NCBI GenBank assembly: GCA_028284225.1
Contig: JANQSD010000013.1
Span: 1-64,000, forward strand
Length of the DNA: 64,000 bases
Direction of reading: 5' to 3'
DNA from: Arenicellales bacterium
Lineage (GTDB): Bacteria > Pseudomonadota > Gammaproteobacteria > Arenicellales > JAHEKD01
This document shows, in pieces, positions 1-17,584 of this stretch (positions are counted from its first letter, which is position 1; the number at the start of each line of letters is the position of its first letter). The notes under the pieces are model-generated. The model was not told where the DNA came from. It saw nothing but the letters and a program-made list of their open reading frames with translations, and did no database searches. The position numbers and the translations under genes are program-made.

Positions 1-60
1 AAGTATTACCGGTAACTGGAGCATGCTGGGGGATCCATCGGCTTTTCTAAGTCCACAGTA

Positions 61-113
61 GTGTCAGTGATCGAGTAACTTTTTCAGAAAGTAAGCTAAA
101 GTAGGCCTGACAG
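61..113. repeat. Partial third copy of ~170-bp repeat
   Basis: The stretch starting GTGTCAG and ending GGCCTGACAG matches the middle of the copy at 489-541 with scattered mismatches (AAGTAAGCTAAAGT against ATGTAAGTTAAATT). It is directly followed by a short inverted repeat, CCTGACAG then CTGTCAGG. It is probably a decayed member of the same family as the copies at 231-402 and 453-622. Confidence 0.55.
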
Positions 114-230
114 ATAAGCATAACCTGTCAGGCCCATTCACAACTCACCGACGTATCTCAACGCGGTTATATCCTTTATCGAAGGATAGCCCATAAACAA
201 ATAGAGGTACTGATTTCATCTGGGACCTCC

Positions 231-402
231 CCCGAAACGATAACAACTATCCTCAGCACGATTAATGGGTGATGACGACTTGATTGTTCAGTAGAGAATG
301 TAGGCTGAATTCGGTCTGACAAGATGGGCAATGATAAAGGTTTTAATCCTCGCAGCCTTGTACATAACTGTTTCACCGGGAAATGAAACGGGCTTTAAGA
401 AG
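231..402. repeat. ~170-bp direct repeat, copy A
   Basis: This copy begins CCCGAAACGATAAC and ends GGGCTTTAAGAAG. Its second half is nearly identical to copy B, including GGGCAATGATAAAGG, GCAGCCTTGTACATAACTG and TTTCACCGGGAAATGA. Copies A and B start 222 bp apart. A diverged relative of the second half occurs at about 31049-31126. It does not encode a convincing protein, and no target-site duplication is obvious. Confidence 0.8.
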
Positions 403-417
403 TACTACCCCACCTAA

Positions 418-436
418 CCTCCCCTGGAAGGGGAGG
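418..436. repeat. Palindromic repeat CCTCCCCT-GGA-AGGGGAGG
   Basis: A perfect 8-bp inverted repeat with a 3-nt loop lies between copies A and B of the longer repeat. The same palindrome core recurs at 706-720, 31003-31021 and 55454-55472, so it is a dispersed family of REP-like type. Confidence 0.8.
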
Positions 437-452
437 AACTGGATAGCCATGT

Positions 453-622
453 CCCGAAACGATAACGATGATCACCGGCACGATAGTAGTGTCAGACTGC
501 AACGGACTAATTCAAAATGTAAGTTAAATTCGGCCTGACAGGGTGGGCAATGATAAAGGATTCAATCCTTGCAGCCTTGTACATAACTGTTTCACCGGGA
601 AATGAGATGGGCTTTAAGAAGG
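453..622. repeat. ~170-bp direct repeat, copy B
   Basis: This is the second full copy of the element at 231-402. The 3' half (about 540-622) is highly similar to copy A; the 5' half is more diverged. The spacing between copies is occupied by the GGGGAGG palindrome. Confidence 0.8.
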
Positions 623-705
623 AACCTCTTTTAACGGAGTCATTCAATTTCCCGGTGAATGATGACAGTGTTAATCCGAGTTGCCTCACTTCGAATCATT
701 TCCAG

Positions 706-720
706 TCCCCTGGAAGGGGA
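706..720. repeat. Palindromic repeat TCCCCT-GGA-AGGGGA
   Basis: This is a shorter copy of the palindrome at 418-436, followed by the same GGAAC. It lies 86 bp from the 3' end of the minus-strand gene at 807 and could act as a transcript-end hairpin, but it has no T-tract. Confidence 0.65.
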
Positions 721-806
721 GGAACATGTCCCGCATTCATTGCGGGATCTCCTGAATAGCTCTTGGTTCTCTTGGAGGTTCCGGCACAGAGCCGAAATAT
801 CATTTC

Positions 807-1925
807 TCAGTAACTTAGTACAGGCTTTCCTAATACCTTTAAATCCGGTTTAACACCAAGCCCGGCTGACTCAGGAGCTGTAATAGTTGAATCAATAAGT
901 TCAGCGTTAAGTTCTGCTGTTTTGAGGTTAATCATGCCGCGTGTATCCAGTACGCAACGTAAATAGCGCTCAGGGACAGTTTGAGCGAGATGCAGAACGG
1001 CAGCAAAAGCAATTTCAGAACCGACCGTGTCTTGTACACTCATGGTCAGACCAGCGGCGATACATATATCCCGTTGCCGTCGGCACTTTGTTAAACCACC
1101 GTTTTTAGAAATTTTCAGCCCAATGCCATCAGCCGCGTCATCGGCAATAATCTGAATCAGTGATTGCTCGGTAGTTGCCAGTTCATCCAGAACGATTGGA
1201 ATACTTGTACGTTTTCTTAATGATAATGTTTCGCGCCAGCTGGAACAGGGGGCTTCTAGAACAAAGTCTAAATCTGAAGGCAAAATTTGTAACATGCGTA
1301 ACGCATTTTCAACAGTTAAACCGCCATTTGCATCAACCAGGAAATACTCGCCATGTTGACGATCAGCCAGACATTGTTGAATCCGTTCAGCATCTAATGC
1401 TGGTCCGCCTTCTGAATCAAGAGTGCCAATTTTAATTGAATGGCCTTTATAGCCTTGGCTTCGATGAGCTGCCACATTTTGCCGCATAGCATCGGGCGAA
1501 TCAGTTGGAATTGATGAAATGGTGGGTAATCCTCGTGCGGTACTGCCACCAAGTAGTTCACAGACGGGCATATCGACAGATTTACCAAAAATATCCCAGC
1601 AGGCAACATCTAAAGCCGTTTTAGCATGGTTATGTCCAACCAGGCTCTGGTCCATTATTTCATTAATACGATCAACCTGTCTCGGATCATAACCAATTAA
1701 ATTAGGGGCGATTTCAGCAATACCGGCTCGTACACCTAATGCATGCGCGGCAATATAGGTTGCACCAAAAGGTGTACTTTCACCCCAGCCTTCGATGCCT
1801 TCATCGGTTGTTATTCTGACTATGGTGGCGTCAAAGCTTGTGTATTGTCGACCGCCAGATAGTTTATAGACACCGCCTGAATAGGGTAAGTCAACTTGAA
1901 AAACGTCTATCTTTTCTATTTTCAT
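807..1925 (-). CDS. Mandelate racemase/muconate lactonizing enzyme family protein
   Basis: This 372-aa protein belongs to the enolase superfamily, which abstracts a proton next to a carboxylate with Mg2+ help, giving racemisation, epimerisation or dehydration. The N-terminal capping domain covers about residues 1-130 and a TIM-barrel follows. Visible active-site residues are the lysine of HSIKIG (about 165), metal ligands in LVDANGG (D198), VLEAPC (E224) and VLDE (D247), and the lysine of GLKISKNGG (about 271). The HSIK motif and N-terminal half resemble cis-3-hydroxyproline dehydratase and hydroxyproline-betaine 2-epimerase (HpbD) relatives; the exact substrate is unknown. I chose the ATG at 1925 (MKIEKIDVF), the family's usual start, because the 18 codons upstream are translated repeat DNA. 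It follows the MDR gene on the same strand. Confidence 0.85.
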   Translation of the reverse strand: MKIEKIDVFQVDLPYSGGVYKLSGGRQYTSFDATIVRITTDEGIEGWGESTPFGATYIAAHALGVRAGIAEIAPNLIGYDPRQVDRINEIMDQSLVGHNHAKTALDVACWDIFGKSVDMPVCELLGGSTARGLPTISSIPTDSPDAMRQNVAAHRSQGYKGHSIKIGTLDSEGGPALDAERIQQCLADRQHGEYFLVDANGGLTVENALRMLQILPSDLDFVLEAPCSSWRETLSLRKRTSIPIVLDELATTEQSLIQIIADDAADGIGLKISKNGGLTKCRRQRDICIAAGLTMSVQDTVGSEIAFAAVLHLAQTVPERYLRCVLDTRGMINLKTAELNAELIDSTITAPESAGLGVKPDLKVLGKPVLSY

Positions 1926-1927
1926 TG

Positions 1928-2026
1928 CAGCGGCCCAAGGCCGGGTTTGGGTTATCTGGTTAATATTGTCCCGGCACAAGGCCGGGGTTGCTTATCTCTT
2001 CAACATGTCCCGGCACAAGCACTAGT
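1928..2026. repeat. Cluster of CCCGGCACAAGGCCGGG-type palindromes
   Basis: Three related units occur: CGGCCCAAGGCCGGG near 1931, CCCGGCACAAGGCCGGGG near 1971, and a truncated CCCGGCACAAGC near 2008. The two minus-strand genes meet inside this cluster, so the last codons of the oxidoreductase are written by repeat sequence. A related CCGGATCGAATCCGGCAC unit occurs near 63897. Confidence 0.7.
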
Positions 2027-3090
2027 TTGCCAACATGTTTCTTACTAAGAAAATCCTCCTGGGCTTGATGGATTTCAGTTAGTGGATATGATTTTGCAAC
2101 CAAGGGTTTAATTTCATTTCGCTCTATATAACCAATCAGGTTTTCAAACACAACATCATCCTGAAAGGTCGAACCGAATAATGATAAATCTTTTAAATAC
2201 AGCGTCCGCACGTCAAATTCCACTATGGGTCCGGCTATTGCACCTGCTGTGACATAGCGGCCACCTCGGACCAAAATATCCAGAAATGACGGCCAGCTTG
2301 GTCCTACCACCAGGTCAATTACTACATCAATGCTTTCTGTGCCAAGTTCGGCGATTAAATCTGCATTTCGATCTATGACCTTATCGGCACCTATATCTAT
2401 AACGTCTTGTTGTTTGTCTTTGCTTGATACAGCAACGATTTTTGCACCTCTGCGTTTGGCGAGTTGCACTGCGGCTGAGCCGACTCCACCAGAAGCTCCA
2501 GTGATTAGTACTCGTTCAGCACCGACATTGGCCCTGTGCAGCATTCCTTCCGCAGTGGAGTAAGCGCATGGAATTGAGGCGAGTTCGATATCACTCCAGT
2601 TACAGTCAATTTTATGGGTTTCTCGGGCAGGAGCTTTGGCGTATTGCGCAAATGCGCCGTCGCATTCTGAACCGAAGGTCCAGCATTTGAATGGTTCATA
2701 ATTGACATAGCTTCTAAGCATGTTTCTGACTAAGACTCGTTCCCCAATCCTGGCTTGGTCAACATTCTCACCCACTGCGACAACCCGACCGCAGCAATCA
2801 GCACCTTGAATACGGGGGAAGTGTAATTTTTCACCCGACCAGGAGCCGTCATCATCCTCGGCTTCTGCAAAACCGCTTTCTCCTCCTGAATTGGTATCAC
2901 CGGTAACAGCTTTCGAGTACCAGGCAATGCGTGTATTTATGTCGGTATTATTGATGCCGGCGGCAGCAACTTTGATTAACACTTCATCCGGACCCGGGTT
3001 TGGTGTCGGCACGTCCTCTCTGATTTCAAGTTTGTCCAGGCCTCCATGCCCGGTGAGCAGGATTGCTGTCATTCTTTCTGGGATAGTCAT
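1960..3090 (-). CDS. MDR-family zinc-independent alcohol dehydrogenase / quinone oxidoreductase
   Basis: This 376-aa protein is a medium-chain NAD(P)H-dependent oxidoreductase. A GroES-like catalytic domain covers about residues 1-150 (GPDEVLIKVAAAGINNTDIN), followed by a Rossmann domain with the dinucleotide motif GASGGVGSAAVQLAKRRGA near residue 200. The cysteine and histidine ligands of zinc alcohol dehydrogenases are not evident, which suits a quinone-reductase-like member. The last residues (about NPGLVPGQY) are encoded by palindromic repeat DNA and are probably not functional. It lies between the LysR gene and the enolase-superfamily gene on the same strand, so the three may be co-transcribed. 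The substrate cannot be told from sequence. Confidence 0.85.
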   Translation of the reverse strand: MTIPERMTAILLTGHGGLDKLEIREDVPTPNPGPDEVLIKVAAAGINNTDINTRIAWYSKAVTGDTNSGGESGFAEAEDDDGSWSGEKLHFPRIQGADCCGRVVAVGENVDQARIGERVLVRNMLRSYVNYEPFKCWTFGSECDGAFAQYAKAPARETHKIDCNWSDIELASIPCAYSTAEGMLHRANVGAERVLITGASGGVGSAAVQLAKRRGAKIVAVSSKDKQQDVIDIGADKVIDRNADLIAELGTESIDVVIDLVVGPSWPSFLDILVRGGRYVTAGAIAGPIVEFDVRTLYLKDLSLFGSTFQDDVVFENLIGYIERNEIKPLVAKSYPLTEIHQAQEDFLSKKHVGKLVLVPGHVEEISNPGLVPGQY

Positions 3091-3142
3091 TTACGTTCTC
3101 GAGTTATTTGTGCCTGAGCATAGCAAACTCAACTTTTCCTGG

Positions 3143-4006
3143 CTATGCTTGATCAATAATCCATTGCCTGAAAATTTTAAGAGCAGGGTTGTCCATTGCT
3201 TTTTCCGGGTAGGCCAGATAATAACCATAGTCATCAAGTTCTACAGGTGAAATCTGAAACAAAAGTTTTTTTTGGATTTCATGATCGACCAGTATGTCAT
3301 TGAGAGCGATGCCTTGCCCATTAATGACAGCTTCAACACGTACATTTGGGTCCGAAATTACCAGATCTGTTCGCTTGGGTGCATAGCTAAGTCCCGCTTT
3401 TTGATACCAGGTTTGCCAGGCTTCGCTATCGTCTCTATCGTGAAGCAGCGTGATGCTGCTCAAAGTTTCTTTCAGGCTAGAATCCCTAACTTGCCTGGCA
3501 ATAATTTTCCCGGCAGTCACTTTAGCAGGGCAGCTGAATAATTTTTCAATGACCATGTCTGACCATCTGCCATCGCCCCAGCGGATAGCCAGATCGATTT
3601 GGTTAGAGGCCAGGTCAATTAAATCGGCCATTGGCTGTAGTCGTAAACTAATATCAGGATGAATCGCTGTGAATTTCATTAAGCGAGGCATTAACCAGCG
3701 CGAAGCGAAGTAAGTCGACATGCCTATTGTAATCCGTCGACTATTGTCAGTTTTTAAGTTTGATATTTCTGATTCAATCTGTGCAAACAAAGGTTGAGTT
3801 GTTTGTAACAGTAGTTTGCCCTTGTCAGTCAAGCTTATGCGGCTATGTTGACGCATGAATAAGTCAAAACCTAAATTGTCTTCAAGACGCTTGATTTGAT
3901 AACTGACTGCACCTTTGGTCAGATTTAATTCTGTTGCAGCACGCGTGATGCTCATGGATTGGGCCACGACGTTAAACACTCTTAAACTGTCAAAAGCTCT
4001 GAACAT
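3143..4006 (-). CDS. LysR-family transcriptional regulator (GcvA-like)
   Basis: This 287-aa regulator has an N-terminal winged helix-turn-helix at about residues 5-65 (FNVVAQSMSITRAATELNLTKGAVSYQIKRLE) and a substrate-binding domain from about residue 90. The wording FRAFDSLRVFNVVAQ and the domain layout resemble the GcvA/AmpR branch. It is the first gene of a minus-strand set with the oxidoreductase and enolase-family enzyme. It is divergent from the MttB-family gene at 4158, so it is the natural candidate to control both directions through the 151-bp AT-rich space between them. The inducer is unknown. Confidence 0.92.
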   Translation of the reverse strand: MFRAFDSLRVFNVVAQSMSITRAATELNLTKGAVSYQIKRLEDNLGFDLFMRQHSRISLTDKGKLLLQTTQPLFAQIESEISNLKTDNSRRITIGMSTYFASRWLMPRLMKFTAIHPDISLRLQPMADLIDLASNQIDLAIRWGDGRWSDMVIEKLFSCPAKVTAGKIIARQVRDSSLKETLSSITLLHDRDDSEAWQTWYQKAGLSYAPKRTDLVISDPNVRVEAVINGQGIALNDILVDHEIQKKLLFQISPVELDDYGYYLAYPEKAMDNPALKIFRQWIIDQA

Positions 4007-4157
4007 TATCTTTGTTTAAATTGATTGAACACTTAGTATAAATTATTTGGTTTGCAACTTGATTATTTTGCTATGAAAATTAGTTCTTTGTCATTTTAAT
4101 TGGTTTTTTAAACAAAATTTAAGTAAAAAAAATTTAAACAATCAGTTTAGAGAGTAA
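4007..4157. promoter_or_regulatory. Divergent LysR/mttB-like control region
   Basis: This very AT-rich intergenic space separates the regulator from the methyltransferase gene. An imperfect inverted repeat of GTT-N11-AAC form lies at 4014-4030, close to the LysR start, and TTTAAAC motifs recur at about 4108 and 4133. LysR proteins typically bind T-N11-A repeats in such divergent spaces. The assignment is by position and pattern only. Confidence 0.45.
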
Positions 4158-5708
4158 ATGCATAGGCAAGTCACGGATAATTTAAGAACCCGACGTCGGC
4201 GCAGAATCGATCCGACTTGCAATAATTCAACCCACTCCCATTCATTACAGCCGAAAAAACTAATACGAAAGTTGCCTGCTTATCAGATGCTGGATGAATC
4301 ATCACTGATTCAGCTGGAAGATCAGGCCGATTGGATTTTGGACCAAATCGGAATTGAGATTCGAAACGATGAAGAAGCGCTTGAGTTGTTTCGCAATGCA
4401 GGTGCAAGAGTATCTGAGCAACGGGTTAAATTTGAACCGGGTTTAGCACGATCATTGTGTCAGACGGCACCGTCCATGTTTGAAATGCATGGACGTGATC
4501 CCAGGCACACTATCACTATAGGTGGTGACTATGTTGTTTTAACGCCGAGTTATGGCCCGCCATTTGTGACTGATCTGGATAAGGGCAGGCGTTATGCGAC
4601 GATTGTTGATTTTCAGAATTTTATAAAACTGGCTTATATCTCACCCTGGCTGCATCATTCCGGAGGAACGGTATGTGAGCCGGTCGATATTGCTGTGAAC
4701 AAGCGGCATTTGGATATGGTTTATAGCCATTTGCGTTATTCAACTAAACCGTTCATGGGTTCGGTAACAGCACCGGAGCGTGCGCAGGATTCGATTGAGA
4801 TGGCTCGAATCGTATTTGGTCGCAATTTCATGGAACAACATTGTGTGATTCAGGGCAATATCAATGTCAACTCCCCTCTGGTCTTTGATGAGGTCATGAC
4901 CGGGGCGCTGAAAGCGTACTCAAGAGCGAATCAGGGCATTGTACTCTCGCCGTTTATTCTTGGTGGGGCCATGGGTCCTGTAACCCAGCCGGCATTGATA
5001 GCACAAGCTCATGCGGAGGCAATGGTCGGAATTGCGTTGAGTCAATTAGTGCGACCAGGGGCACCGGTTGTCTATGGTAATTTTCTGACAACGTTAAACC
5101 TTAAAACGGGTGCACCCACATTTGGTACACCTCAGGCCGTATTGTCGACTTATGCTATTGGACAGCTTTGCCGACGTTTAGGCTTGCCGCTGCGTTGCGG
5201 TGGCTATTTAACAGCTGCCAAGAGTGTTGACGGGCAAGCCATGCAAGAATCCATTGATTCTATGAATGCAGGGATTATGGCGGGTGCTAATTATATTCTG
5301 CATGCAGCAGGCTGGCTGGAAGGCGGATTGACCATGGGCTATGAGAAGTTTGTCATCGACCTGGAGAACTGTGGTGCTCTACACAGTTTGCTTGATGGTT
5401 TGACTATTGACGAGAATAATCTGGCTAAACAAGCTTATAGACAAGCCGGTCCGGGGGAAAACTTTTTAGGTGTACCGCACACCATGGAAAATTTCAAAAC
5501 AGCAAACTATATGGCAGATTTAGCTGATACCCAATCGTTTGAACAATGGTCTGAACAAGGCAGCTTGACCATCGAACAGCGTGCAAACAAGCACTGGAAA
5601 CAAATGCTGGCTGAATATGTCATGCCGCCCATGGACGAATCAATCAATCAAAGGTTAATAGATTTTATTCAGCAAAAGAAGCAGGCAGTGCCGGACCAAT
5701 GGTATTAG
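4158..5708 (+). CDS. MttB-family (trimethylamine methyltransferase-like) protein, non-pyrrolysine
   Basis: This 516-aa protein belongs to the MttB superfamily, whose characterised members move a methyl group from a methylated or quaternary amine to a corrinoid cofactor. Family landmarks include LPAYQMLDESSLIQLEDQAD near residue 40, the glycine-rich GAMGPVTQPALIAQAHAEAM, QLVRPGAPVVYGNF and MAGANYILHAAGWLEGGL. The reading frame has no internal amber codon, so it lacks the pyrrolysine of true MttB and falls with the glycine betaine methyltransferase-like group. The N-terminus carries an arginine-rich tail (RTRRRRR). The ATG at 4158 follows a GAGAG. The GcvT-like gene begins 28 bp downstream, suggesting an operon. 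No corrinoid protein is encoded nearby. The substrate is unknown. Confidence 0.88.
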   Translation: MHRQVTDNLRTRRRRRIDPTCNNSTHSHSLQPKKLIRKLPAYQMLDESSLIQLEDQADWILDQIGIEIRNDEEALELFRNAGARVSEQRVKFEPGLARSLCQTAPSMFEMHGRDPRHTITIGGDYVVLTPSYGPPFVTDLDKGRRYATIVDFQNFIKLAYISPWLHHSGGTVCEPVDIAVNKRHLDMVYSHLRYSTKPFMGSVTAPERAQDSIEMARIVFGRNFMEQHCVIQGNINVNSPLVFDEVMTGALKAYSRANQGIVLSPFILGGAMGPVTQPALIAQAHAEAMVGIALSQLVRPGAPVVYGNFLTTLNLKTGAPTFGTPQAVLSTYAIGQLCRRLGLPLRCGGYLTAAKSVDGQAMQESIDSMNAGIMAGANYILHAAGWLEGGLTMGYEKFVIDLENCGALHSLLDGLTIDENNLAKQAYRQAGPGENFLGVPHTMENFKTANYMADLADTQSFEQWSEQGSLTIEQRANKHWKQMLAEYVMPPMDESINQRLIDFIQQKKQAVPDQWY

Positions 5709-5736
5709 TTAATTTCAATTTACTAGGAGAAATAAT

Positions 5737-6840
5737 ATGACCGAATCAACACGTACATCACAGCTCGCGTCACGGCATACTGCTCTCGGTTCTGATCTGG
5801 AAGACTGGAATGGGATGGGTACGGCCTGGAGCTACAACACTAACCCTGAGGATGAACATGATGCGGTGCGTGAAGCAGCAGGGCTGTTTGACATGTCTGC
5901 GCTTAAAAAAGTTTATTTGCGTGGCCCTGATGCGGCTAGAGTGGCTGATCATGTAATCACTCGTGATATGAGCAGAATAGACCCGGGTCAATCGGCTTAC
6001 GGAGCAATTCTGACTGAGCAAGGTACAGTTTGCGATGATGCGATCATTGCCAATAATGACAATACCGAGTGGCTGGCTTGTCATGGTTCGGGTGAAACCA
6101 TGGAGCGACTGCAAGAATCAGGGGCGGGATTAAACGTTGATATCGAACTGAATGATGATTTACACAATATTTCAGTCCAGGGTCCGAAAGCAATGCAATT
6201 ATTGGATGCGCATACCCCCACGGATTTGGGTGCCTTGGCTTATTTCCATCATCAACCGACTGAATTATTTGGTCATCGATGCCGGATTTCCCGAACAGGT
6301 TATTCAGGCGAAAAAGGCTATGAAGTCCTTGTGGATCGTTCAGCAGTCTGTGATGTTTGGGATAATCTTTTAGGCTATGGAGAGGAGCTTGGTGTTTTGC
6401 CATGTTCGTTCACTGCATTGGATAAGGTGCGTATCGAAGCCGCATTATTGTTTTTTGGTTATGATATGACTGTAGAGCATAGTCCTTGGGAGGTTGGATT
6501 AGGATTTACTATCAATCGCAATAAAGGTGATTTCCGCGGTAAGGATAAGGTGTTTGAACTGCAGGGCCGGGAACGTTTTAAGTTGGCGGGTATAGATATC
6601 GATCATAATGAGGCTTTGGTGGGTGGTGAGAAATTATTGCATGATGGAAAAGAAGTGGGCGTCATTAACAGTCCCGGTTATTCGCACCGATTGAAAAAAT
6701 CTCTGGCTTTAGTGCATCTGGACCCGGGTGTATTAACTACCGGAACGCAACTAAATATAGTTTCCGAAGCAGGCAATTACTCGGCACGAGTGTCGACTAT
6801 ACCGTTCTATGATCCAACAAAATCACGAGTTAGGACATAA
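5737..6840 (+). CDS. GcvT-family aminomethyltransferase-like protein
   Basis: This 367-aa protein has the fold of glycine-cleavage T-protein, DMSP demethylase DmdA and sarcosine/dimethylglycine oxidase tails, which transfer one-carbon units to tetrahydrofolate. Landmarks are AAGLFDMSALKKVYLRGPDA near residue 50, ILTEQGTVCDDAIIA with the conserved aspartate near 100, and RTGYSGEKGYEV near 190. A clear ribosome site, CTAGGAG, lies upstream of the ATG. No P, H or L glycine-cleavage gene is in the window, so a role in glycine cleavage is unlikely. Its place after an MttB-like gene suggests it takes the released methyl group onto folate. That pairing is inference. Confidence 0.85.
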   Translation: MTESTRTSQLASRHTALGSDLEDWNGMGTAWSYNTNPEDEHDAVREAAGLFDMSALKKVYLRGPDAARVADHVITRDMSRIDPGQSAYGAILTEQGTVCDDAIIANNDNTEWLACHGSGETMERLQESGAGLNVDIELNDDLHNISVQGPKAMQLLDAHTPTDLGALAYFHHQPTELFGHRCRISRTGYSGEKGYEVLVDRSAVCDVWDNLLGYGEELGVLPCSFTALDKVRIEAALLFFGYDMTVEHSPWEVGLGFTINRNKGDFRGKDKVFELQGRERFKLAGIDIDHNEALVGGEKLLHDGKEVGVINSPGYSHRLKKSLALVHLDPGVLTTGTQLNIVSEAGNYSARVSTIPFYDPTKSRVRT

Positions 6841-6848
6841 ACTTGAGG

Positions 6849-7811
6849 CTAGCTATAATACCCGGCTCGTACTGTTGCTCCAATAAAGTTGCAAAGCAGG
6901 CGTTCGGCGTGGACCATGCTGGTGTTGCCGACATCAAGAGAAGGGGCAATTTCAACCAGATCCATGCCCAGCACACGGCCTTTATTTACCAGGCCATGAA
7001 TCAATTGACGAGTCTGTACCCAATTTAACCCGCCAGGCGTCTGAGCCATAACAGCAGGCATAATGCTGGGATCAAGCCCATCTGCATCAACGGTTAAATA
7101 GTAGTAGCCATCATCCACAATGCGATCCAGGACCGCCTGAATGCCGATTTCATGCATTTCATAAGCGGTAATAATATCTGCACCATATTCTAATGCCGCT
7201 TCAACTTCACCCGTTCTGGCACTACCGATACCACGGATGCCGACTTGTACAATTTCGTTGATCCAGGGCATTTCGCTGGCCCGACGAATCGGGCTGGAAT
7301 AGCCTTCTTTTTGCCCATTTATATCATTGCGCCAATCAATGTGTGCATCAATTTGAACCAGTGTGATTTTTTGATTGATCTCTTCGAGCGCGCGTAATAC
7401 AGGAATAGGTATGCCATGATCGCCGCCGAGAGTGATCAATATCGCTTCTGATTTAAAAATCAGTCTGGCGGCTTGCTCGGCTCTACGATAATGTTCCTCA
7501 GGATCGTTTAGATCAGCTGTAACATTGCCGCAATCAACAATCTTAATGTCCTGATCGTTCAGTAGTGGACCACCTAAATCCCAATCAAAGTGATTGAGTG
7601 TATATTCGATATCAATCATGTTGCTTGACTGGCGTATTGCATCCGGTGCCAGGCTTTGATCGTTGGCTAATTCATGAGTGCGATAAGGTTTGCCATAGGG
7701 AATACCCAATACAGCAATGTCGGCATCGAGTTGATCCAAATTTAGCTGAAGTGGAAAATCTAGAAAAGTTTGTGGTGAGCAACCTGGTGATTGTGTGAGA
7801 TTATCAGTCAT
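6849..7811 (-). CDS. Agmatinase/ureohydrolase family protein
   Basis: This 320-aa protein belongs to the arginase/agmatinase family, binuclear Mn2+ enzymes that hydrolyse guanidino groups to urea plus an amine. The metal motifs are intact: GGDHG (H132), DAHID (D155, H157, D159) and DADGLDP (D242, D244). Known members act on agmatine, guanidinobutyrate, guanidinopropionate or related compounds, and sequence alone does not separate these. It is convergent with the GcvT-like gene and divergent from the second MttB-like gene, so it sits inside the methyltransferase block and may act on the same substrate family. Confidence 0.9.
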   Translation of the reverse strand: MTDNLTQSPGCSPQTFLDFPLQLNLDQLDADIAVLGIPYGKPYRTHELANDQSLAPDAIRQSSNMIDIEYTLNHFDWDLGGPLLNDQDIKIVDCGNVTADLNDPEEHYRRAEQAARLIFKSEAILITLGGDHGIPIPVLRALEEINQKITLVQIDAHIDWRNDINGQKEGYSSPIRRASEMPWINEIVQVGIRGIGSARTGEVEAALEYGADIITAYEMHEIGIQAVLDRIVDDGYYYLTVDADGLDPSIMPAVMAQTPGGLNWVQTRQLIHGLVNKGRVLGMDLVEIAPSLDVGNTSMVHAERLLCNFIGATVRAGYYS

Positions 7812-7849
7812 TCGATAATATTAAACTGTTAAGCGGCTTAAAGTCTACG

Positions 7850-7891
7850 TTGATTTATAGTGACATTACATTTGCTAAACTGATAAATCAA
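7850..7891. promoter_or_regulatory. Inverted repeat in divergent ureohydrolase/mttB-like promoter region
   Basis: TTGATTTAT at 7850-7858 and its exact complement ATAAATCAA at 7883-7891 form a 9-bp inverted repeat with a 24-bp spacer. It lies between two divergent genes. It could be an operator for a shared regulator, perhaps the LysR protein of this block. Confidence 0.4.
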
Positions 7892-7966
7892 ATTTTGCAA
7901 AAGCCTATTGCACTTATTGTTAAGACTTCATAGTATCGGCAAATACAAACACACCGAGAAAACTGT

Positions 7967-9523
7967 ATGGGCGCAGCAAAAAGAGGCCGTCGCGGCCGAC
8001 GACGCGAAGCACTGGAAAGTTCGGTTTCGCAGCAGTCTAATCATCCGGTTTCTGGTGCAAATTATCGTGCGCCGGTCAATCCCTATCCACCAATAGAAAT
8101 ACTCAGTGAGGACCAGCTAAACAGTATTCACGAGGCCTCGCTCAAAGTGATCGAAGAAACCGGCATGAGGATTCTTTATGATGAAGGTCGGGAGATATTC
8201 AGGCAGGCAGGTGCTGAGGTCAATGACGAGACAATGATGGTCAAGATTGATCGCGGCTTATTGATGGAGTCAGTTGCTAAAGCGCCTTCCAAGATAGAAC
8301 TAGAATATCGCAACCCTGAACGTAATAATGCTATTGGAAAAGGTCATGTCGTATTCTCGGCTGTTGGTGGAGCGCCGAATGTCAGTGACATAGACAATGG
8401 CAAACGCCCTGGCACATTAGAGGATTTCAAGAACTTTCTCAAGCTCTCACAAAGCTTTGACATCGTACACATGGTCGGAGGTGCGCCGGAACCCATTGAT
8501 ATTGATACTTCAATCAGGCATTTGCTGGTCACACAGGCAGATGTCACGCTGACGGATAAATTCCCGCATGTTTACGCCAGGGGTCAGGGTTCGATTGATG
8601 ATGCCCTTGAGATTATCCGAATTGCTAATGGCGTTACTAATGAGCAATTTAGACAAAATGTTTATTGCAACACGGTTGTTAACACCAATTCACCATTGCA
8701 GCTTGATGTGCCCATGACACAGGGTATAGTTGAGTTTGCCAAAGCAGGGCAGCTGACGATTATTACGCCTTTTACGCTCTCCGGCGCTATGGCACCTGTA
8801 ACAATCAGCGGAGCTCTGGTTTTACAGAATCTTGAAGCTCTGGTTGGTATTGCTCTTGCTCAAATTGTTCGTCCGGGTGCACCTGTTGCTTATGGTGGTT
8901 TTACCTCCAATGTGGATATGAAAAGCGGCTCGCCGGCATTCGGTACTCCCGAATATACTAAAGCGGCTTTTGCCAGTGGTCAGCTGGCGCGTTTTTATAA
9001 TGTGCCCTGGCGCTCATCCAATGTTAATGCGTCCAATGCTCCGGATGCACAATCGGCCTATGAGTCAGAAATGGCCCTATGGGGTGCATTAATGGGCGGC
9101 GCAAACCTGATTAAGCATGGCGCAGGTTGGCTGGAGGGTGGGTTAACAGCATCTTACGAAAAATACATTATCGATATTGAGATCATGCAAATGTTCGCCG
9201 AAGTCTTTCATCCGTTTACAGTTACAGTGGAAGATCTGGCATTAGAGGCAATTAAAGATGTCGGGCCTGGCGGCCACTTTTTTGGTACTCAGCATACAAT
9301 GGAGCGTTATAAAACTGCATTTTATGATCCACTAGTCTCGGATTGGCAGAACTATGGCAGTTGGACTGAGGGCGGCAGTAAAGACAGCGCACAGCGTGCG
9401 AATGCAATCTATAAGCAGATACTTAACGATTATGTTCAGCCACAGATGGATCAGGCCAGAATAGATGAGATACAACAGTACGTAGACCGCCGCACCCGTG
9501 AGGGTGGTGTGCAGATGCTATAG
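7967..9523 (+). CDS. Second MttB-family methyltransferase, non-pyrrolysine
   Basis: This 518-aa MttB-superfamily protein is a paralogue of the one at 4158. It shares LSGAMAPVTISGALVLQNLEAL, AQIVRPGAPVAYGGF, FGTPEYTKAAFASGQLAR and GGANLIKHGAGWLEGGLTASYEK, but the two diverge widely elsewhere. The frame is uninterrupted, so there is no pyrrolysine. The N-terminus again has an arginine-rich tail (KRGRRGRRREA). It stands alone on the plus strand, with a divergent ureohydrolase and no corrinoid protein or reactivase nearby. It probably acts on a different or sequential methylated amine from its paralogue; the substrate is unknown. Confidence 0.88.
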   Translation: MGAAKRGRRGRRREALESSVSQQSNHPVSGANYRAPVNPYPPIEILSEDQLNSIHEASLKVIEETGMRILYDEGREIFRQAGAEVNDETMMVKIDRGLLMESVAKAPSKIELEYRNPERNNAIGKGHVVFSAVGGAPNVSDIDNGKRPGTLEDFKNFLKLSQSFDIVHMVGGAPEPIDIDTSIRHLLVTQADVTLTDKFPHVYARGQGSIDDALEIIRIANGVTNEQFRQNVYCNTVVNTNSPLQLDVPMTQGIVEFAKAGQLTIITPFTLSGAMAPVTISGALVLQNLEALVGIALAQIVRPGAPVAYGGFTSNVDMKSGSPAFGTPEYTKAAFASGQLARFYNVPWRSSNVNASNAPDAQSAYESEMALWGALMGGANLIKHGAGWLEGGLTASYEKYIIDIEIMQMFAEVFHPFTVTVEDLALEAIKDVGPGGHFFGTQHTMERYKTAFYDPLVSDWQNYGSWTEGGSKDSAQRANAIYKQILNDYVQPQMDQARIDEIQQYVDRRTREGGVQML

Positions 9524-9531
9524 AGTAAGGT

Positions 9532-9660
9532 TTAGGCGTTCAGAAAGCTGAAAATTAATACCATCAGTGGGATGGCGATCAGGGTTGCTACGTGTATTAC
9601 CTTACCGTTCGTCTGCATTTTTATCATTTGAATTAGTAGTCTTTTATGAGCAATTTTCAT
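9532..9660 (-). CDS. Possible 42-aa single-span membrane protein
   Basis: A short frame from an ATG at 9660 to a TAA at 9532 encodes 42 residues. They consist of a basic N-terminus (MKIAHKRLL), a second basic stretch, and a C-terminal hydrophobic run (about residues 21-40, VIHVATLIAIPLMVLIFSFL) that would span the membrane once. There is no clear Shine-Dalgarno site. Internal ATGs at residues 12 and 15 are alternative starts. It is convergent with the MttB-like gene, 8 bp away. It may be a real small membrane protein or chance; conservation would decide. Confidence 0.3.
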   Translation of the reverse strand: MKIAHKRLLIQMIKMQTNGKVIHVATLIAIPLMVLIFSFLNA

Positions 9661-9890
9661 TTGCAGTAAATAGATATTAACCTTAGTTAAAGTGAATTCT
9701 ACCTATCCCAGTATGAAATATCTGTGAACAATTGTCAACATTTTGTGTGAAATTTTCCACAAAGTTGTATTTTTGAGACATTTTGGCTTGCCAGTAGTAT
9801 AAATTTGTTGATCGATTACTGAGCAAATAAGTAGATGGAAAGATTCCGGGTTAAATTAATATGATTCCAAATGAGTACAGAGGATTGTTG
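9661..9890. other. Gene-free AT-rich spacer with TTTGTG/CACAAA inverted repeat
   Basis: I see no gene here. The only structure is an inverted repeat, TTTGTG at 9742-9747 and CACAAA at 9758-9763, flanking a GAAATTTTC core. It might be a regulator site or promoter element. Confidence 0.35.
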
Positions 9891-10265
9891 TTACTCATCA
9901 ACAACCCGGATATAAAACCGGGAATTTTGGAAGCGATAATCTTCAAACCAGCATACGGGAGTCAAATTTTCACCGACATTAGCTTGAATTAGCTTTGAAT
10001 CTCTTGGCAATGCGTGAAAATATCGTCCGTTTGTAAGTGTTGTAGTCACGGCTGGAAGGCTTGGTAAGTGGTTGCGTAGGCGTAACTGCCCGTGCTCCAT
10101 TTGTTCACCCTCAAATAGCATTACACCGGTACGTGTTTCAGCATTAAATTGATGGATCTTGACAATAATAATTTCGTTGCAGGTCAGTGATTTATTAATC
10201 AACACGGAATCACAACCTGTGAGTAATAAGACAAAACTGACCAAAATGACAAATTTATTGATCAT
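9891..10265 (-). CDS. Hypothetical lipoprotein
   Basis: This 124-aa protein has a lipoprotein signal peptide, MINKFVILVSFVLLLTGC, with a lipobox (LLTGC) and cysteine at residue 18, so the mature part would be lipid-anchored. The remainder (about 105 residues) is soluble and not recognised. It sits upstream of gloB on the same strand with a 137-bp gap, so co-transcription is uncertain. No function is proposed. Confidence 0.7.
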   Translation of the reverse strand: MINKFVILVSFVLLLTGCDSVLINKSLTCNEIIIVKIHQFNAETRTGVMLFEGEQMEHGQLRLRNHLPSLPAVTTTLTNGRYFHALPRDSKLIQANVGENLTPVCWFEDYRFQNSRFYIRVVDE

Positions 10266-10402
10266 AGAATACCCCCGTACTTAAGTTAATTTAGAACCCC
10301 TATCTCAAAATACTCTTTTACCTCAAATGAACTGCGCTTTTCGCCCACTTTTGTCTGGTCTGAACATCGCTTAACTATTTTGAGGTAGGTTAACGTTAAT
10401 TT

Positions 10403-11194
10403 CTACCAATTATTTCTCAGTTCACGTAGTTTTAGAAAAACAGCTTGCCTTGAAGGTTCGGCACCCAGTTCTGGATATCGGTTCGTCAGATTCTTGATCA
10501 CAGCTGTTTCACTCAATCTTAGAAATGTATTAAACGCTTTTTCCTGGCCGATATTAGTAATGATCTGATTTTCAGGGGAATGATGATTGGCTTGCTGCAG
10601 CATTTGCTTAGCAGCCTGATTGTCAGCTTCAATGCTTAAGGTGAATTCAAGGTTGGTTTGCATATAATCATGGCCGGGGTAGATGCGTGTGGAATCAGTC
10701 AGTTTGCTGATTTTGTTCTCAAATGTTTCGTAGAGTGTTATCGCATCGCCGCTATGAACATTGCCGGCACCGGCATTAAAAATAGTATCACCACAAAGCA
10801 GTTCAGGTGTCTGCGTATTAGAGAGCAATGAAATATGCGGCAGTGTATGGCCGGACGTGTCAATAATATCGAACACAATTGATTCGCCTAAATTAATCTG
10901 ATCGCCTTCGTTTAGCCATTGATCAACATTATTAATTGCGGCATTTGTTGGTGCCAATAATGGTGCGCCCGTAGCAGTGATCACATCGGCATTGCCGGCT
11001 ATATGGTCACCATGATCATGGGTATTTACGACGGCTTTTACAGTCCAGCTGTTTTGCTTAACTACCACCAGGATTTGATCGACAGCAAAAGGATCAATCA
11101 CCAGTGCTTCACCGGTTTTTCGGCACACGGCAATGTAATTATAGTTTCGCAGATTGTTAGCTAACCAAAGTCGTTCTATGTGTAAATCGTCCAT
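10403..11194 (-). CDS. gloB: Hydroxyacylglutathione hydrolase (glyoxalase II)
   Basis: This 263-aa metallo-beta-lactamase-fold enzyme hydrolyses S-lactoylglutathione to lactate and glutathione, the second step of methylglyoxal detoxification. The metal motif THDHGDH is at residues 58-64, further ligands are in DTSGHTLPH, CGDTIF and YPGHDY, and a C-terminal substrate-binding domain ends with LRELRNNW, typical of GloB. The length matches the family. It is co-directional with the metC-like gene 16 bp upstream, so the two are probably transcribed together. Both concern sulfur compounds. Confidence 0.93.
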   Translation of the reverse strand: MDDLHIERLWLANNLRNYNYIAVCRKTGEALVIDPFAVDQILVVVKQNSWTVKAVVNTHDHGDHIAGNADVITATGAPLLAPTNAAINNVDQWLNEGDQINLGESIVFDIIDTSGHTLPHISLLSNTQTPELLCGDTIFNAGAGNVHSGDAITLYETFENKISKLTDSTRIYPGHDYMQTNLEFTLSIEADNQAAKQMLQQANHHSPENQIITNIGQEKAFNTFLRLSETAVIKNLTNRYPELGAEPSRQAVFLKLRELRNNW

Positions 11195-11210
11195 TTTATG
11201 TACCCATTTT

Positions 11211-12404
11211 CTATGCCTTTGCGTTATTCATACGGTCAAAGCCTGCTCTAAGATCATGTTTAAGGTCTTCAATATCCTCCAGGCCGATATGAATGCGCAT
11301 AATTATACCTTGCTCCTGCCAGGGCTCGGCGGTTCTGATGCTGGACATAAATCCGGGCACGAGTAGACTTTCATAACCTCCCCAGCTATAACCCATGCCG
11401 AATAACGACATGTGATCGAGCAGGGCAGCCAAGGCCGGTTTGTCAACCGGATGGAGCACAAAGCCAAATAGACTGCTGGCACCTTTGAAATCGCGTTTCC
11501 AGAGCTGATAGTCCGGATGATCCTCGCGGGCCGGATGAATAACATATTTGACTTCCGCTTGCTCACTCAGCCATTGTGCCATTTCCAGTCCGCTACGCTG
11601 ATGGTGTTTTAATCTTGTTTCCAGGCTGCGCAGGCCGCGCAGCAGCAAATAGCAATCATCCGGGCCGATATGATTACCCATAAGCTGAGCATAGTAGTGA
11701 ATTTTAGGGTAAAGCTTTTCATTGGCCGTAATGCTACCGCCCATCACATCTGAGTGCCCGCTGAAATATTTAGTGGCAGCGTGGATTGAAATGTCAACAC
11801 CCTGGTTTAAGGGCTGATAGAAAAGAGGTGTGGCCCAGGTATTATCAAGTAAAGTAGTAATCTTGTGCGCTTGAGCGACCTGTACAATTGTTGGAACATC
11901 CTGAATTTCAAATGTATATGATCCGGGTGATTCAAGATAGATGGCACGGGTATTAGGTTTGATTAGTGTTTCTATTTCGTCCCCCATTCTGGGTGGGAAA
12001 TAAGTGACTTCAATATTCTGACGACGCAGAACATTATCGCAAAATGCGCGTGTTGGACCATAAACGGAATCGGCTATTAATAAATGATCACCTGAGTCGA
12101 GCACGGCACCGATTGCCAGTGTGATTGCCATTAATCCAGAGGCGGTAATTATCGTATCATGCCCGTTTTCCAGATTGGTTATAGCTTGAGCCAGGGCATA
12201 GTGTACGGTGGTGCCGTGAATACCATAGGTGCTATGGCCGGGTAAACTGGCGGCCTTTTGCCGATCCTCAATCTGTTCCAGGGTATCGAACAATATGGTT
12301 GATGCATGAAATACCGGTGGATTTACAGCGCCTTTGGTTGGATAGATAGTTGCATCTTCATGTAGAGTGCGAGTGGTTAACTTGAATTTGCTGTAATCGC
12401 TCAT
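11211..12404 (-). CDS. metC: Cystathionine beta-lyase
   Basis: This 397-aa PLP-dependent lyase belongs to the Cys/Met metabolism family and would cleave cystathionine to homocysteine, pyruvate and ammonia. The PLP lysine is in HAATKYFSGHSD (about residue 212). TYGIHGTTVHYALAQAI and the C-terminal GYSWGGYESL fit the MetC branch better than MetB. I chose the ATG at 12404 (MSDYSKFKLTTRTLH) over a longer TTG-initiated form. The gene is followed after 16 bp by gloB. It is separated from the upstream kbp-like gene by a strong terminator. A different C-S lyase activity remains possible. Confidence 0.88.
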   Translation of the reverse strand: MSDYSKFKLTTRTLHEDATIYPTKGAVNPPVFHASTILFDTLEQIEDRQKAASLPGHSTYGIHGTTVHYALAQAITNLENGHDTIITASGLMAITLAIGAVLDSGDHLLIADSVYGPTRAFCDNVLRRQNIEVTYFPPRMGDEIETLIKPNTRAIYLESPGSYTFEIQDVPTIVQVAQAHKITTLLDNTWATPLFYQPLNQGVDISIHAATKYFSGHSDVMGGSITANEKLYPKIHYYAQLMGNHIGPDDCYLLLRGLRSLETRLKHHQRSGLEMAQWLSEQAEVKYVIHPAREDHPDYQLWKRDFKGASSLFGFVLHPVDKPALAALLDHMSLFGMGYSWGGYESLLVPGFMSSIRTAEPWQEQGIIMRIHIGLEDIEDLKHDLRAGFDRMNNAKA

Positions 12405-12440
12405 CTGAATGCCCGAGAATAATTGGGTCAATCATACACA

Positions 12441-12469
12441 AAAAAAGCGCTTCAAATGAAGCGCTTTTT
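12441..12469 (-). terminator. Rho-independent terminator after the BON-LysM gene
   Basis: AAAAAGCGCTTCA and its exact complement form a 13-bp stem with a 2-nt loop, flanked by A-run and T-run on opposite sides, 17 bp downstream of the stop codon at 12486. Read on the minus strand it ends in a U-tract. The symmetry would let it work in both directions, but only the minus strand has a gene reading in. Confidence 0.9.
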
Positions 12470-12485
12470 GCTGGAATAAGATTCC

Positions 12486-12938
12486 TTATGCGACTTGGCC
12501 TTCGCTATCCTTGGGGATGCGGATTTTTTGACCGGGGAAGATTAAATCAGGATCCTGGATTACTTCGCGATTAGCTTCAAAAATCTCAGGATAACGGTTA
12601 CCGTCACCTAAATGTTTGCTGGCAATAGCCCAAAGCGTATCACCCGATTGAATTTCATAGTAAGTGACTTTGTCTTCTTCAATCTCCGGGGCGCTGACAC
12701 CATCAGCTTTTACTTCGCTAACACCTTCCACGTTGCCGGCCATGAGTATAGCCTTTTCCAGCGCTTCGGCACTTTCAGCTTCGCCGGAAAGTGTAGCAAC
12801 ACCGTCATTTACCTCGACTTTAAGGTTGTCAAGACCAGGGTTGTTGTCTTCGATGTGTGCTTGAATTTTATCGCCAGCATCTTCTTCGCGATCAAACAAT
12901 TTTCTACCAATATTAGCGGCAAAATCAAAAAGTCCCAT
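12486..12938 (-). CDS. kbp: BON-LysM potassium-binding protein (Kbp/YgaU-like)
   Basis: This 150-aa protein matches E. coli Kbp (YgaU), a cytoplasmic K+-binding protein, in length and domain order. It starts MGLFDFAANIGRKLF, has a BON domain at about residues 20-90 (VEVNDGVATLSGEAESAEALEKAI), and a LysM domain at about 95-145 (YYEIQSGDTLWAIASKHLGD to LIFPGQKIRIP). There is no signal peptide. A good ribosome site (TAGGAG) precedes the ATG. It ends in its own terminator, so it is probably monocistronic. Confidence 0.9.
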   Translation of the reverse strand: MGLFDFAANIGRKLFDREEDAGDKIQAHIEDNNPGLDNLKVEVNDGVATLSGEAESAEALEKAILMAGNVEGVSEVKADGVSAPEIEEDKVTYYEIQSGDTLWAIASKHLGDGNRYPEIFEANREVIQDPDLIFPGQKIRIPKDSEGQVA

Positions 12939-13042
12939 TATTTGGCTCCTATTACTGTAGGGTTGGTTTTAAGTGGCTAAACTATACAATAAATCGCTAA
13001 ATTAGTCTGCGCTTTAAGCTTGTTTTAACAATCGTTAGCATA

Positions 13043-13192
13043 TCAGTTTTCGTTTTTTTGTTTGTCTAGTTCCTGTTGTAAGGATCGTGTATAGCGGCTT
13101 TGCTGCAAACCCCTAAGTACCCAGCCCATTATAAAACCGATCAACAAAGCGGCTAATAAATAAAGAATTATTTCACTAATTAAATACAGCAT
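13043..13192 (-). CDS. Small membrane protein with coiled C-terminus
   Basis: This is a 49-residue protein from the ATG at 13192. Residues 2-28 are strongly hydrophobic (LYLISEIILYLLAALLIGFI), followed by a charged helix (LQQSRYTRSLQQELDKQKNEN). An upstream in-frame ATG would add 14 residues that look non-coding. The layout recalls small LapA/YtxH-like single-span proteins, but no family is assigned. It is divergent from ddl. Confidence 0.5.
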   Translation of the reverse strand: MLYLISEIILYLLAALLIGFIMGWVLRGLQQSRYTRSLQQELDKQKNEN

Positions 13193-13267
13193 GTCCGTGT
13201 TCGATAATTGTAGACAGGGGACAGAGACTAGCATAATCTTTGGCTCACATCATTTAAGATTAAGCAC

Positions 13268-14371
13268 ATGAAAAAAATAAAAGTGGGTGTGTTATTCGGT
13301 GGACAATCTGCCGAGCACGAGGTGTCACTGGTTTCTGCGCGCCATGTTGTTGCCGCTATGGATAAAAGTAAGTATGAAATCAGTTTGATTGGTATTACCC
13401 ATACCGGTAACTGGTTATTGGCCGATGATCAGTCTAAAGCGCTTGCACACAAGACTGTTGACGAACAGGCTTTACCGGCAGTGACTCTGGACTACACCGG
13501 TTCGGATCGCTCGCTTAAGCGTAACGAACATGGTGTGATTTCTGAGGCGATTACAGAGCTTGATGTAATTTTCCCGGTACTGCATGGGCCTCATGGCGAA
13601 GATGGTACTGTTCAAGGGCTATTCGAACTCGCCAATGTGCCTTATGTGGGTTGTGGTGTAGCGGCATCTGCTCTGGCGATGGATAAGGTATTGGCCAAAC
13701 AGGCGTTTCAGGCAGTTGGCATTCCCCAAACTGACTATCAGGCCTATCGCAGTCACCAGTGGCAGCAAGACCAGGCGGCTGTAATTAAGTCGATTGAAGA
13801 TAAGTTTAACTACCCGGTATTTGTTAAACCTGCAAATATGGGATCCAGTGTAGGTATTAGCAAAGCGCATGATCAGAATGAACTTGTAACCGGTATCAAT
13901 CTGGCGCTGAACTATGACCTTAAAATCATCATAGAAGAATCTGCCGAAGGGTTTCGTGAAGTTGAGTGCGCCGTATTGGGCAATGAGAATGCTAAAGCCT
14001 CTGTTGTGGGTGAGATTATTCCCGGAAAAGAATTCTATGATTACGAAACTAAATATATTGATGATAAATCGGAGTTAATTATCCCGGCAGATTTACCGGA
14101 ACAGGCCGCAAAACAAATCCAGCACTATGCCGTAAAAGCATTTCAAGCGATTGACGGCAGTGGCTTGGCACGTGTGGATTTCTTTATCAGCACAGATAAT
14201 CAGGTTATTTATATTAATGAAATTAACACCATGCCGGGATTTACGCCGATCAGCATGTACCCCAAACTGTGGCAGGCTAGTGGTGTTGAATATCCGGATT
14301 TGATCGATAAATTGATTTCTCTAGGATTAGAAAAATCAATTCAAAAACAAAAGCTTAAAACAGAAATTTAG
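13268..14371 (+). CDS. ddlA: D-alanine--D-alanine ligase
   Basis: This 367-aa ATP-grasp enzyme joins two D-alanines for peptidoglycan precursor synthesis. The N-terminal motif VGVLFGGQSAEHEVSLVSA, the middle KPANMGSSVGISK and the C-terminal EINTMPGFTPISMYP (metal-binding asparagine and glutamate) are intact. The length and spacing fit the DdlA type rather than the shorter DdlB. It is a single gene, not in a mur/fts cluster, and is convergent with the HAD phosphatase gene 14 bp away. Confidence 0.95.
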   Translation: MKKIKVGVLFGGQSAEHEVSLVSARHVVAAMDKSKYEISLIGITHTGNWLLADDQSKALAHKTVDEQALPAVTLDYTGSDRSLKRNEHGVISEAITELDVIFPVLHGPHGEDGTVQGLFELANVPYVGCGVAASALAMDKVLAKQAFQAVGIPQTDYQAYRSHQWQQDQAAVIKSIEDKFNYPVFVKPANMGSSVGISKAHDQNELVTGINLALNYDLKIIIEESAEGFREVECAVLGNENAKASVVGEIIPGKEFYDYETKYIDDKSELIIPADLPEQAAKQIQHYAVKAFQAIDGSGLARVDFFISTDNQVIYINEINTMPGFTPISMYPKLWQASGVEYPDLIDKLISLGLEKSIQKQKLKTEI

Positions 14372-14384
14372 AATATACATTAGG

Positions 14385-15134
14385 CTATTTAAGGTTAATA
14401 TGCTGGATGGAATCTAGTATGGCATGAGTGTAAGGGCATAGCATGTCAGCCGTACCTGCACCGGTCAGCACTCCGATTGAAACTGCTCCGGCTTGCTGAG
14501 CCATATAAACGTCGCCTACAGTATCACCCACCATGGCTATTTTCGAAACCTGTGTACCCCACATACGGGCTATTCTATGCAACAAATCCGGATCAGGCTT
14601 TGCGGGTAAGCCGAGGTCATCACCACAGGCAATAAAAATTGACTCTGTATCGCATTGTAGTTTTTCTAATGTATCCAAGGTGCCATGGCGATTATCAGCT
14701 GTGGCGACGCCCACCTTAATTCCACTGACTTTGAGGGTATTAAAAAATTCGGGCAAATTTGCAGTGGGTGTCAATTGGTCCAAAGTTGGCGGTGTTTCAG
14801 CAGCTTGTTTGAATATTTTAAAAACCCGTTGCTCTGCATCAGTCCATTTCATCCCATGCTGATATAAAACAGTCGCGACGACTGTGTAAATTTTGTCGAA
14901 TGTGGAGATCGAATAAGGCCCGTCAAACGAGTGCATGGTTTCTGGGTCCACCCCTAATGTCTTGAAAACATTTGCAGTGATTATTTCTTTATCATCAAAG
15001 GGCTCAACCAAATCATCGACCGCTTTACGCAGAATTGGTCCCCAAGTGGCATGAAAGTCGATTAAGGTACCGTCTTTATCAAACACAATTCCGTCAATTT
15101 CATGGGTTTGGCCGTTGAGAATAATTGCAGGCAT
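14385..15134 (-). CDS. HAD-superfamily phosphatase (phosphoglycolate phosphatase-like)
   Basis: This 249-aa HAD hydrolase has motif I DKDGTL (nucleophile D19, acid D21), a helical cap at about residues 30-120, motif II VATAD, the KPDPD loop and motif III MVGDTVGDVYMAQQAG. The layout fits the Gph/PGP-like branch of small-molecule phosphatases. It is divergent from the glycosyltransferase gene at 15191 and convergent with ddl. The substrate is not determinable. Confidence 0.85.
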   Translation of the reverse strand: MPAIILNGQTHEIDGIVFDKDGTLIDFHATWGPILRKAVDDLVEPFDDKEIITANVFKTLGVDPETMHSFDGPYSISTFDKIYTVVATVLYQHGMKWTDAEQRVFKIFKQAAETPPTLDQLTPTANLPEFFNTLKVSGIKVGVATADNRHGTLDTLEKLQCDTESIFIACGDDLGLPAKPDPDLLHRIARMWGTQVSKIAMVGDTVGDVYMAQQAGAVSIGVLTGAGTADMLCPYTHAILDSIQHINLK

Positions 15135-15190
15135 GCGTATTAGCTCAGTGATATGATTCGATCTCGTAACTATACTTAAATTCTTTTGGG

Positions 15191-16252: not shown

Positions 16253-16655
16253 AAGCCGAGTTGATGTTGTCCAGGTAAAATTACCTGTATCCGAGTTTGT
16301 GGACCGTTATTTGATCAGTGTTCTAAAACTAAATAAATTCACCGAGGCCGGTAAATCCAATACACAAGCATTACAGCAATGGATTGCTGGACATGATGAT
16401 GATTATCAAAAAATCATTAACTCATCGGATAAAGTCAAACAGGCGAGTGATGAGCTATCTGATGTGCATTCAAAGTTATGGGATTTAGAAGACCTTGTGC
16501 GTTCCCCCGAAGCCGAAAACACTGATTACTTTGCCAAGATAGCCAAACAGATTTTTGCCTTAAACACACAGCGCCATAAACTCAAACATGCTATCGATCA
16601 GGAGTTACCTTCATTAGCATTCGGCCCACGTTTGTATGATAAGGGGATTGAATAA
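16245..16655 (+). CDS. DUF6165-like protein coupled to glycosyltransferase
   Basis: This 136-aa protein starts with a VQVKLPVSEFVDRYLISVLKL stretch and has a later KLWDLEDLVRSPEA and ALNTQRHKLKHAIDQEL. That pattern resembles DUF6165 proteins, small helical proteins often found beside sugar transferases. There is no signal peptide or membrane segment. The start overlaps the end of the glycosyltransferase gene by 8 bp, so the two probably work together. The function of the family is not known to me. Confidence 0.7.
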   Translation: MNESRVDVVQVKLPVSEFVDRYLISVLKLNKFTEAGKSNTQALQQWIAGHDDDYQKIINSSDKVKQASDELSDVHSKLWDLEDLVRSPEAENTDYFAKIAKQIFALNTQRHKLKHAIDQELPSLAFGPRLYDKGIE

Positions 16656-17561: not shown

Positions 17562-17584
17562 TCATATAATACGGCGACCAGATC

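Follow-up and report, generated by a model that had tools for sequence, protein, structure and literature searches.

A conserved LysR-MttB1-GcvT gene module and its probable use of a shared corrinoid hub in an Arenicellales bacterium

Gene layout around MttB1 and MttB2

The window analyzed here covers the initial 64 kb of contig C21 from the draft genome (4.09 Mb, 96% complete) of an Arenicellales bacterium. Near its start three genes lie in close tandem on the minus strand and encode an enolase-superfamily protein of 373 amino acids (807..1928), a zinc-type MDR alcohol dehydrogenase (1960..3090; PF00107/PF08240; 307 bits to PDB 4j6f) and a GcvA-like LysR-family regulator (3143..4006). The first of these belongs to the Pfam MR/MLE enolase superfamily, in the cis-3-hydroxyproline dehydratase/proline-betaine racemase-like group. 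It keeps both catalytic lysine motifs (IKIG and LKI), matches PDB entries 2ps2 (526 bits) and 2pce (486 bits), and scores 365 bits against NCBIfam NF043002, under the cut-off of 500. Only 806 nt separate its gene from the contig end, so more genes of the cluster could lie out of view.

MttB1 (4158..5708; PF06253, 704.6 bits) starts on the plus strand 151 nt from the divergent LysR gene, and is followed after 28 nt by the gene for a stand-alone, DmmD-like folate enzyme of the GcvT family (5737..6840, plus strand; PF01571, 221 bits, and PF08669; hereafter GcvT). An agmatinase/ureohydrolase-family gene (6849..7811; PF00491, 206 bits) lies on the minus strand, its product having intact metal motifs (GGDH, DAHID and DADGLDP), and a second methyltransferase gene, MttB2 (7967..9523; PF06253, 633.6 bits), on the plus strand. 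Every open reading frame of the initial annotation is found where it had been placed, with Pfam backing for the families. Both MttB genes had also been called non-pyrrolysine, in agreement with the lack of an in-frame stop in either; the pyrrolysine-containing trimethylamine methyltransferase was rejected on this ground and on the TIGR02369 scores (244 and 341 bits against a cut-off of 525). MttB1 and MttB2 share 37% identity and belong to different MttB subclades.

A corrinoid hub on contig C22 and its candidate clients

The initial annotation saw no corrinoid partner for these enzymes, and for the window this is correct, matches to B12-binding and RACo domains being confined to contigs C22, C1 and C14. 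The partner is nevertheless present in the genome, where a whole-genome check found a corrinoid protein, MtgC, and a RACo reactivase encoded together on C22 and co-conserved with MttB, an outcome that the initial annotation had named as contradicting its reading. The genome has three B12-binding domains, two of them in proteins identified by eye as a radical-SAM protein and IcmF, and the third in a stand-alone corrinoid protein of 234 amino acids (C22:86838-87539) that lies 4.4 kb from the only RACo domain in the genome. The best model for this protein is MtgC, at 205 bits and below an exception-type cut-off of 370; PF02310 and PF02607 are above cut-off and a DIHDIG motif of the DxHxxG type is present. 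The gene string reads FolD; MetF, MtgC, DUF1638, Virulence_fact, MTHFR-like, pterin-binding MeTr, GFA and RACo, with the central families confirmed by HMM scans and FolD assigned by eye. MtgD scores 365 bits against PRK07535 (cut-off 259), the reactivase is RACo/AcsV-like, and two MTHFRs accompany DUF1638. Serine and sarcosine-oxidase genes were seen by eye nearby on C22.

The type of pathway is already known. In aerobic Ruegeria pomeroyi, proteomics and mtgC and mtgD mutants established that a set of MtgC, MtgD, MetF2, DUF1638 and RamA demethylates glycine betaine. The study counted as many as seven PF06253 genes in a genome, and predicted that the set serves several PF06253 proteins and that other substrates are used (PMC12478193). 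The Arenicellales genome resembles the MtgBCDE systems of R. pomeroyi and Sinorhizobium meliloti in every component of the MtgBCD set (non-pyrrolysine PF06253 proteins, stand-alone MtgC, MtgD, MetF2, DUF1638 and RamA/RACo) and in the scatter of PF06253 genes away from a single hub. As in most MtgBCD genomes, a classical MetH was not found among its B12-domain proteins. It differs in the number of PF06253 genes, which is 14 here. In Eubacterium limosum, MtpB, MtcB and MtyB share one MtqC, so that in the MtqC-MtqA-RamQ system too a single corrinoid protein, with its gene at another site, takes methyl groups from more than one member of the MttB superfamily; however, this organism is an anaerobic acetogen, and the text searched names no GcvT partner (PMC8604678).

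MttB1 and MttB2 would thus be two of 14 substrate-specific quaternary-amine methyltransferases, each passing one methyl group to MtgC. MtgD, a methylcobalamin:H4F methyltransferase, would move this methyl into the folate pool as CH3-H4F for oxidation by MetF2 and FolD, and RamA/RACo would reactivate the shared corrinoid protein. MtgC probably serves all 14 MttBs as their common carrier, and MttB1 and MttB2 are very probably clients of the hub. What appeared to be a missing-partner puzzle becomes a testable hub-and-client design, in which one B12 carrier would serve 14 demethylases in an aerobic-type bacterium, and B12-dependent demethylation in the sea may extend to a broader set of osmolytes.

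Co-occurrence across genomes fits this arrangement. Among 109 genomes of the same order, MttB was found in 89, RACo in 84 and a close MtgC in 85. MttB and RACo occur together in 84 and are both absent from 20, with MttB alone in five and RACo alone in none (Fisher value 1e-17, in which the relatedness of the genomes overstates independence). RACo and MttB are also both present in all 13 genomes with GcvT relatives, which include Anaerolineales (Chloroflexota), Kiloniellaceae, Desulfobacula and Rhodobacteraceae. Neither MtgC nor RACo was detected in G067 (92% complete), which has the MttB1-GcvT pair, nor in G007, G056 and G082, which have MttB.

The 14 paralogs are diverse. MttB1 and its partners form one clade (support 100/99) apart from that of the S. 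meliloti protein of PDB entry 4yyc, and MttB2 groups in a subclade with MttB_C1, MttB_C17 and MttB_C21b. The closest of the bacterium's own proteins to 4yyc is MttB_C14a (68%), which lies outside the MttB1 clade and is inferred to be the best candidate for a glycine-betaine enzyme in this genome.

A charge pattern at the protein termini distinguishes genomes with this type of hub. Arg-rich tails are found at the N-termini of MttB1 (MHRQVTDNLRTRRRRRIDP) and MttB2 (MGAAKRGRRGRRR), and at the C-termini of RACo (...GGGEGRRRRRRR) and MtgD (...GGGGRRSGRRRARGNA); outside the window, the pattern lies at L037:8839-9543, 11479-12399 and 12805-14832, and at L152:11529-12593. Counts were made on full-length, non-redundant open reading frames in the fetched loci, with the proviso that relatedness among the sequences limits their independence. 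An Arg-rich N-tail occurs in 66 of 71 MttBs of hub genomes, against 112 of 645 other open reading frames. An Arg-rich C-tail ends 33 of 34 RACo proteins there and 25 of 26 MtgD proteins, against 23 of 645. The sole MtgE-like protein seen ends in ...KRRRGRRSI. MtgC N-termini are acidic, with a net charge of -12 to -19 within 45 residues. Tails are absent from all five RACo and six of seven MttB proteins of the Desulfobacula controls, from MttB, MtgD and RACo of the actinobacterial control G117, and from the aligned sequence of Desulfitobacterium hafniense MtgB. The acidity of MtgC does not discriminate by itself, since one MtgC of Desulfobacula, at -11, is fairly acidic too. These tails could form a docking code, in which those of MttB (N-terminal) and of MtgD, RamA and, in one case, MtgE (C-terminal) bind the acidic MtgC N-terminus; we regard this as a possibility that falls a little short of being probable. 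With such a code, numerous methyltransferases could compete for a single corrinoid carrier wherever their genes lie, and the tails allow the sharing of one corrinoid protein by many enzymes to be tested directly. A search for Arg-rich tails together with corrinoid proteins returned no match in the open-licence full-text literature, including the R. pomeroyi study (PMC12478193), whose main text mentions neither the tails nor an MttB1-GcvT-LysR module; it is this conserved module, presumptively for a betaine, and the tail pattern that are new here.

Conservation of the MttB1-GcvT pair and its possible substrate

The adjacency of MttB and GcvT genes was surveyed across genomes, a check proposed in the initial annotation, and the pairing proved to be conserved in several phyla and not a product of chance. 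Among 18 scorable loci with GcvT orthologs of at least about 58% identity (about 58-73%), an MttB gene of the MttB1 type directly adjoins GcvT in 16, against an expectation of about 2.6% per locus. The pair occurs in either gene order, with a 4-nt overlap of its members in Anaerolineales, and nearly every pair is flanked by a LysR relative (44-59% identity), the whole being conserved in Gammaproteobacteria, Alphaproteobacteria and Chloroflexota. This conservation supports a functional link between MttB1 and GcvT and makes the pair a marker of a putative betaine route. In the proposed scheme LysR would control a divergent regulon, with MDR and enolase genes on one side and MttB1-GcvT on the other. 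Searches of the open-licence full-text literature for MttB with GcvT or aminomethyltransferase gave no match. Two Thioglobus-like genomes carry GcvT without an adjoining MttB (L058:2681-3784 and L071:7744-8835), and have MttB and RACo elsewhere.

The block of paired MttB genes described initially holds together only in part: the link of MttB1 to GcvT stands, whereas agmatinase and MttB2 fall outside the conserved core. They were rejected as members of the module as no agmatinase gene lies beside MttB1 in relatives, and are better described as a second pair, oriented divergently, with no more than a possible link to the LysR-MttB1-GcvT core. An agmatinase-family gene adjoins an MttB at two separate sites in this genome (window 6849-9523 and L048:9683-13141). 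A guanidino-type betaine is a conceivable substrate for an MttB with such a neighbor.

The other neighbors of MttB1 bear on its substrate. MttB1 orthologs occur without GcvT in G072, G091, G093 and G086. In G091 and G093, MttB1 is in one string with a Rieske enzyme, enolases, an MDR relative (53-54%) that directly adjoins it, and an FAD enzyme that is L-pipecolate-oxidase-like (278 bits, below a cut-off of 600); in G072 it has an aldehyde dehydrogenase on one side and an enolase on the other. Rieske genes are also near MttB1 in G067 and G051. Because enolase, MDR, Rieske and pipecolate-oxidase-like genes are linked to MttB1 in this way, a cyclic imino-acid betaine, e.g., proline or hydroxyproline betaine, is tentatively suggested as the substrate of MttB1-GcvT, a reading to which we give rather less than an even chance. 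The same hub mechanism could also act on a substrate unrelated to proline, such as a trimethylated amino acid, a carnitine-like compound or a pyridinium, with enolase and MDR as incidental neighbors, and this alternative comes close to an even chance. It accords with the adjacency of enolase and MDR to MttB1 in only a minority of relatives (three, besides the window), with the lack of both genes at the L056, L059 and Anaerolineales loci, and with the identity of the paralog beside an HpbD-like enolase, which is MttB_C14b and not MttB1. It leaves unaccounted for the union of enolases, MDR, MttB1 and an imino-acid-oxidase-like FAD enzyme in the single strings of G091 and G093. The HpbD-like enolase itself (hydroxyproline-betaine epimerase, by eye) directly precedes MttB_C14b on contig C14 (L040:8574-11446), which suggests use of hydroxyproline or proline betaine through an MttB instead of a Rieske enzyme.

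Identity and proposed role of the GcvT protein

The closest relatives of GcvT outside the module are found in actinobacteria and Rhodobacteraceae (41-44% identity); they too are stand-alone, and several have DmmA and HODM genes as neighbors and are therefore DmmD, the H4F enzyme of the dimethylamine monooxygenase cluster dmmDABC (PMC5520151). The motif DLEDWNGM is common to GcvT and DmmD-type proteins. Identity falls to 22-30% with the bacterium's own GcvT and DmdA, the Thermotoga maritima T-protein and the GcvT domains of fused FAD oxidase-GcvT/DMGDH proteins. Long branches make the GcvT tree unstable, with weak support for wider groupings, and identities and motifs were used in preference to topology. 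The protein also keeps a T-protein-type folate motif (RTGYSGEKGYE) and an Asp at the catalytic position (Asp101). Assignment as the T-protein of glycine cleavage was rejected, with scores of 191 against 235.85 bits and 223 against 300 bits; a true gcvT (550 bits) is on contig C12, where gcvH- and gcvP-like genes come next.

The function proposed for DmmD is to attach to H4F the formaldehyde that amine demethylation releases (PMC5520151). GcvT differs from DmmD in being paired with MttB1, not with dmmABC, and no dmmABC or HODM genes were found at positions 1-18000 of the window or beside the MttB1-linked relatives. Since GcvT is nearest to DmmD and not to DmdA or the T-protein, its more likely role is to capture a second methyl group, removed oxidatively, as methylene-H4F. 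A GcvT domain lies within 2.5 kb of six of the 14 MttB genes in this genome (binomial tail 8e-6), and fused FAD oxidase-GcvT proteins are near four of these six. Together with the likeness to DmmD, this proximity points to removal of the first methyl via B12 and of later ones by oxidation: GcvT would handle the next methyl, released as a formaldehyde equivalent, to give CH2-H4F, and would be no substitute for the corrinoid protein. The combined reading, with MttB1 and MttB2 as clients of an MtgBCD-type hub and GcvT as a DmmD-like enzyme, is considered likely.

Two further roles for GcvT have to be weighed against capture of an oxidatively released methyl. DmdA and LigM share the GcvT fold and transfer methyl groups to H4F, and GcvT might likewise form CH3-H4F with no corrinoid protein involved, its methyl coming straight from the quaternary substrate or else from MttB1. 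The DmdA-style hand-over raised in the initial annotation would suit both the co-conservation of the pair, down to the 4-nt overlap, and the gene order of most relatives, which places no oxidase between MttB1 and GcvT or immediately behind them, an absence that also tells against capture of an oxidatively released methyl. Such a hand-over is unlikely all the same. GcvT is stand-alone and of a fold that is H4F-dependent in DmdA, but it shares only 24% identity with that enzyme, falls short of the DmdA model, with 137 bits where 410 are required, and has RTGYSGEKGYE where DmdA has SGWSKQGG; the genome also has a separate, true DmdA. MttB1 moreover still resembles a corrinoid client in both its family sequence and its Arg tail, and a corrinoid reactivase is present in all 13 genomes of the other collection, and in 10 of 11 genomes of the order, that carry GcvT or a relative. 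Least probable of all is that GcvT, tightly linked to MttB1 and of folate-type fold, serves as an operon-dedicated H4F acceptor from methyl-MtgC in place of MtgD, as MtgD was found in nearly every hub inspected, GcvT (24 proteins) is at background for Arg-rich tails, that of the window having none, and we know of no GcvT-fold methylcobalamin:H4F transferase.

The true DmdA is encoded on C22 (L035:1378-2556; 480 bits, cut-off 410), which makes DMSP a probable further substrate of demethylation in this bacterium.
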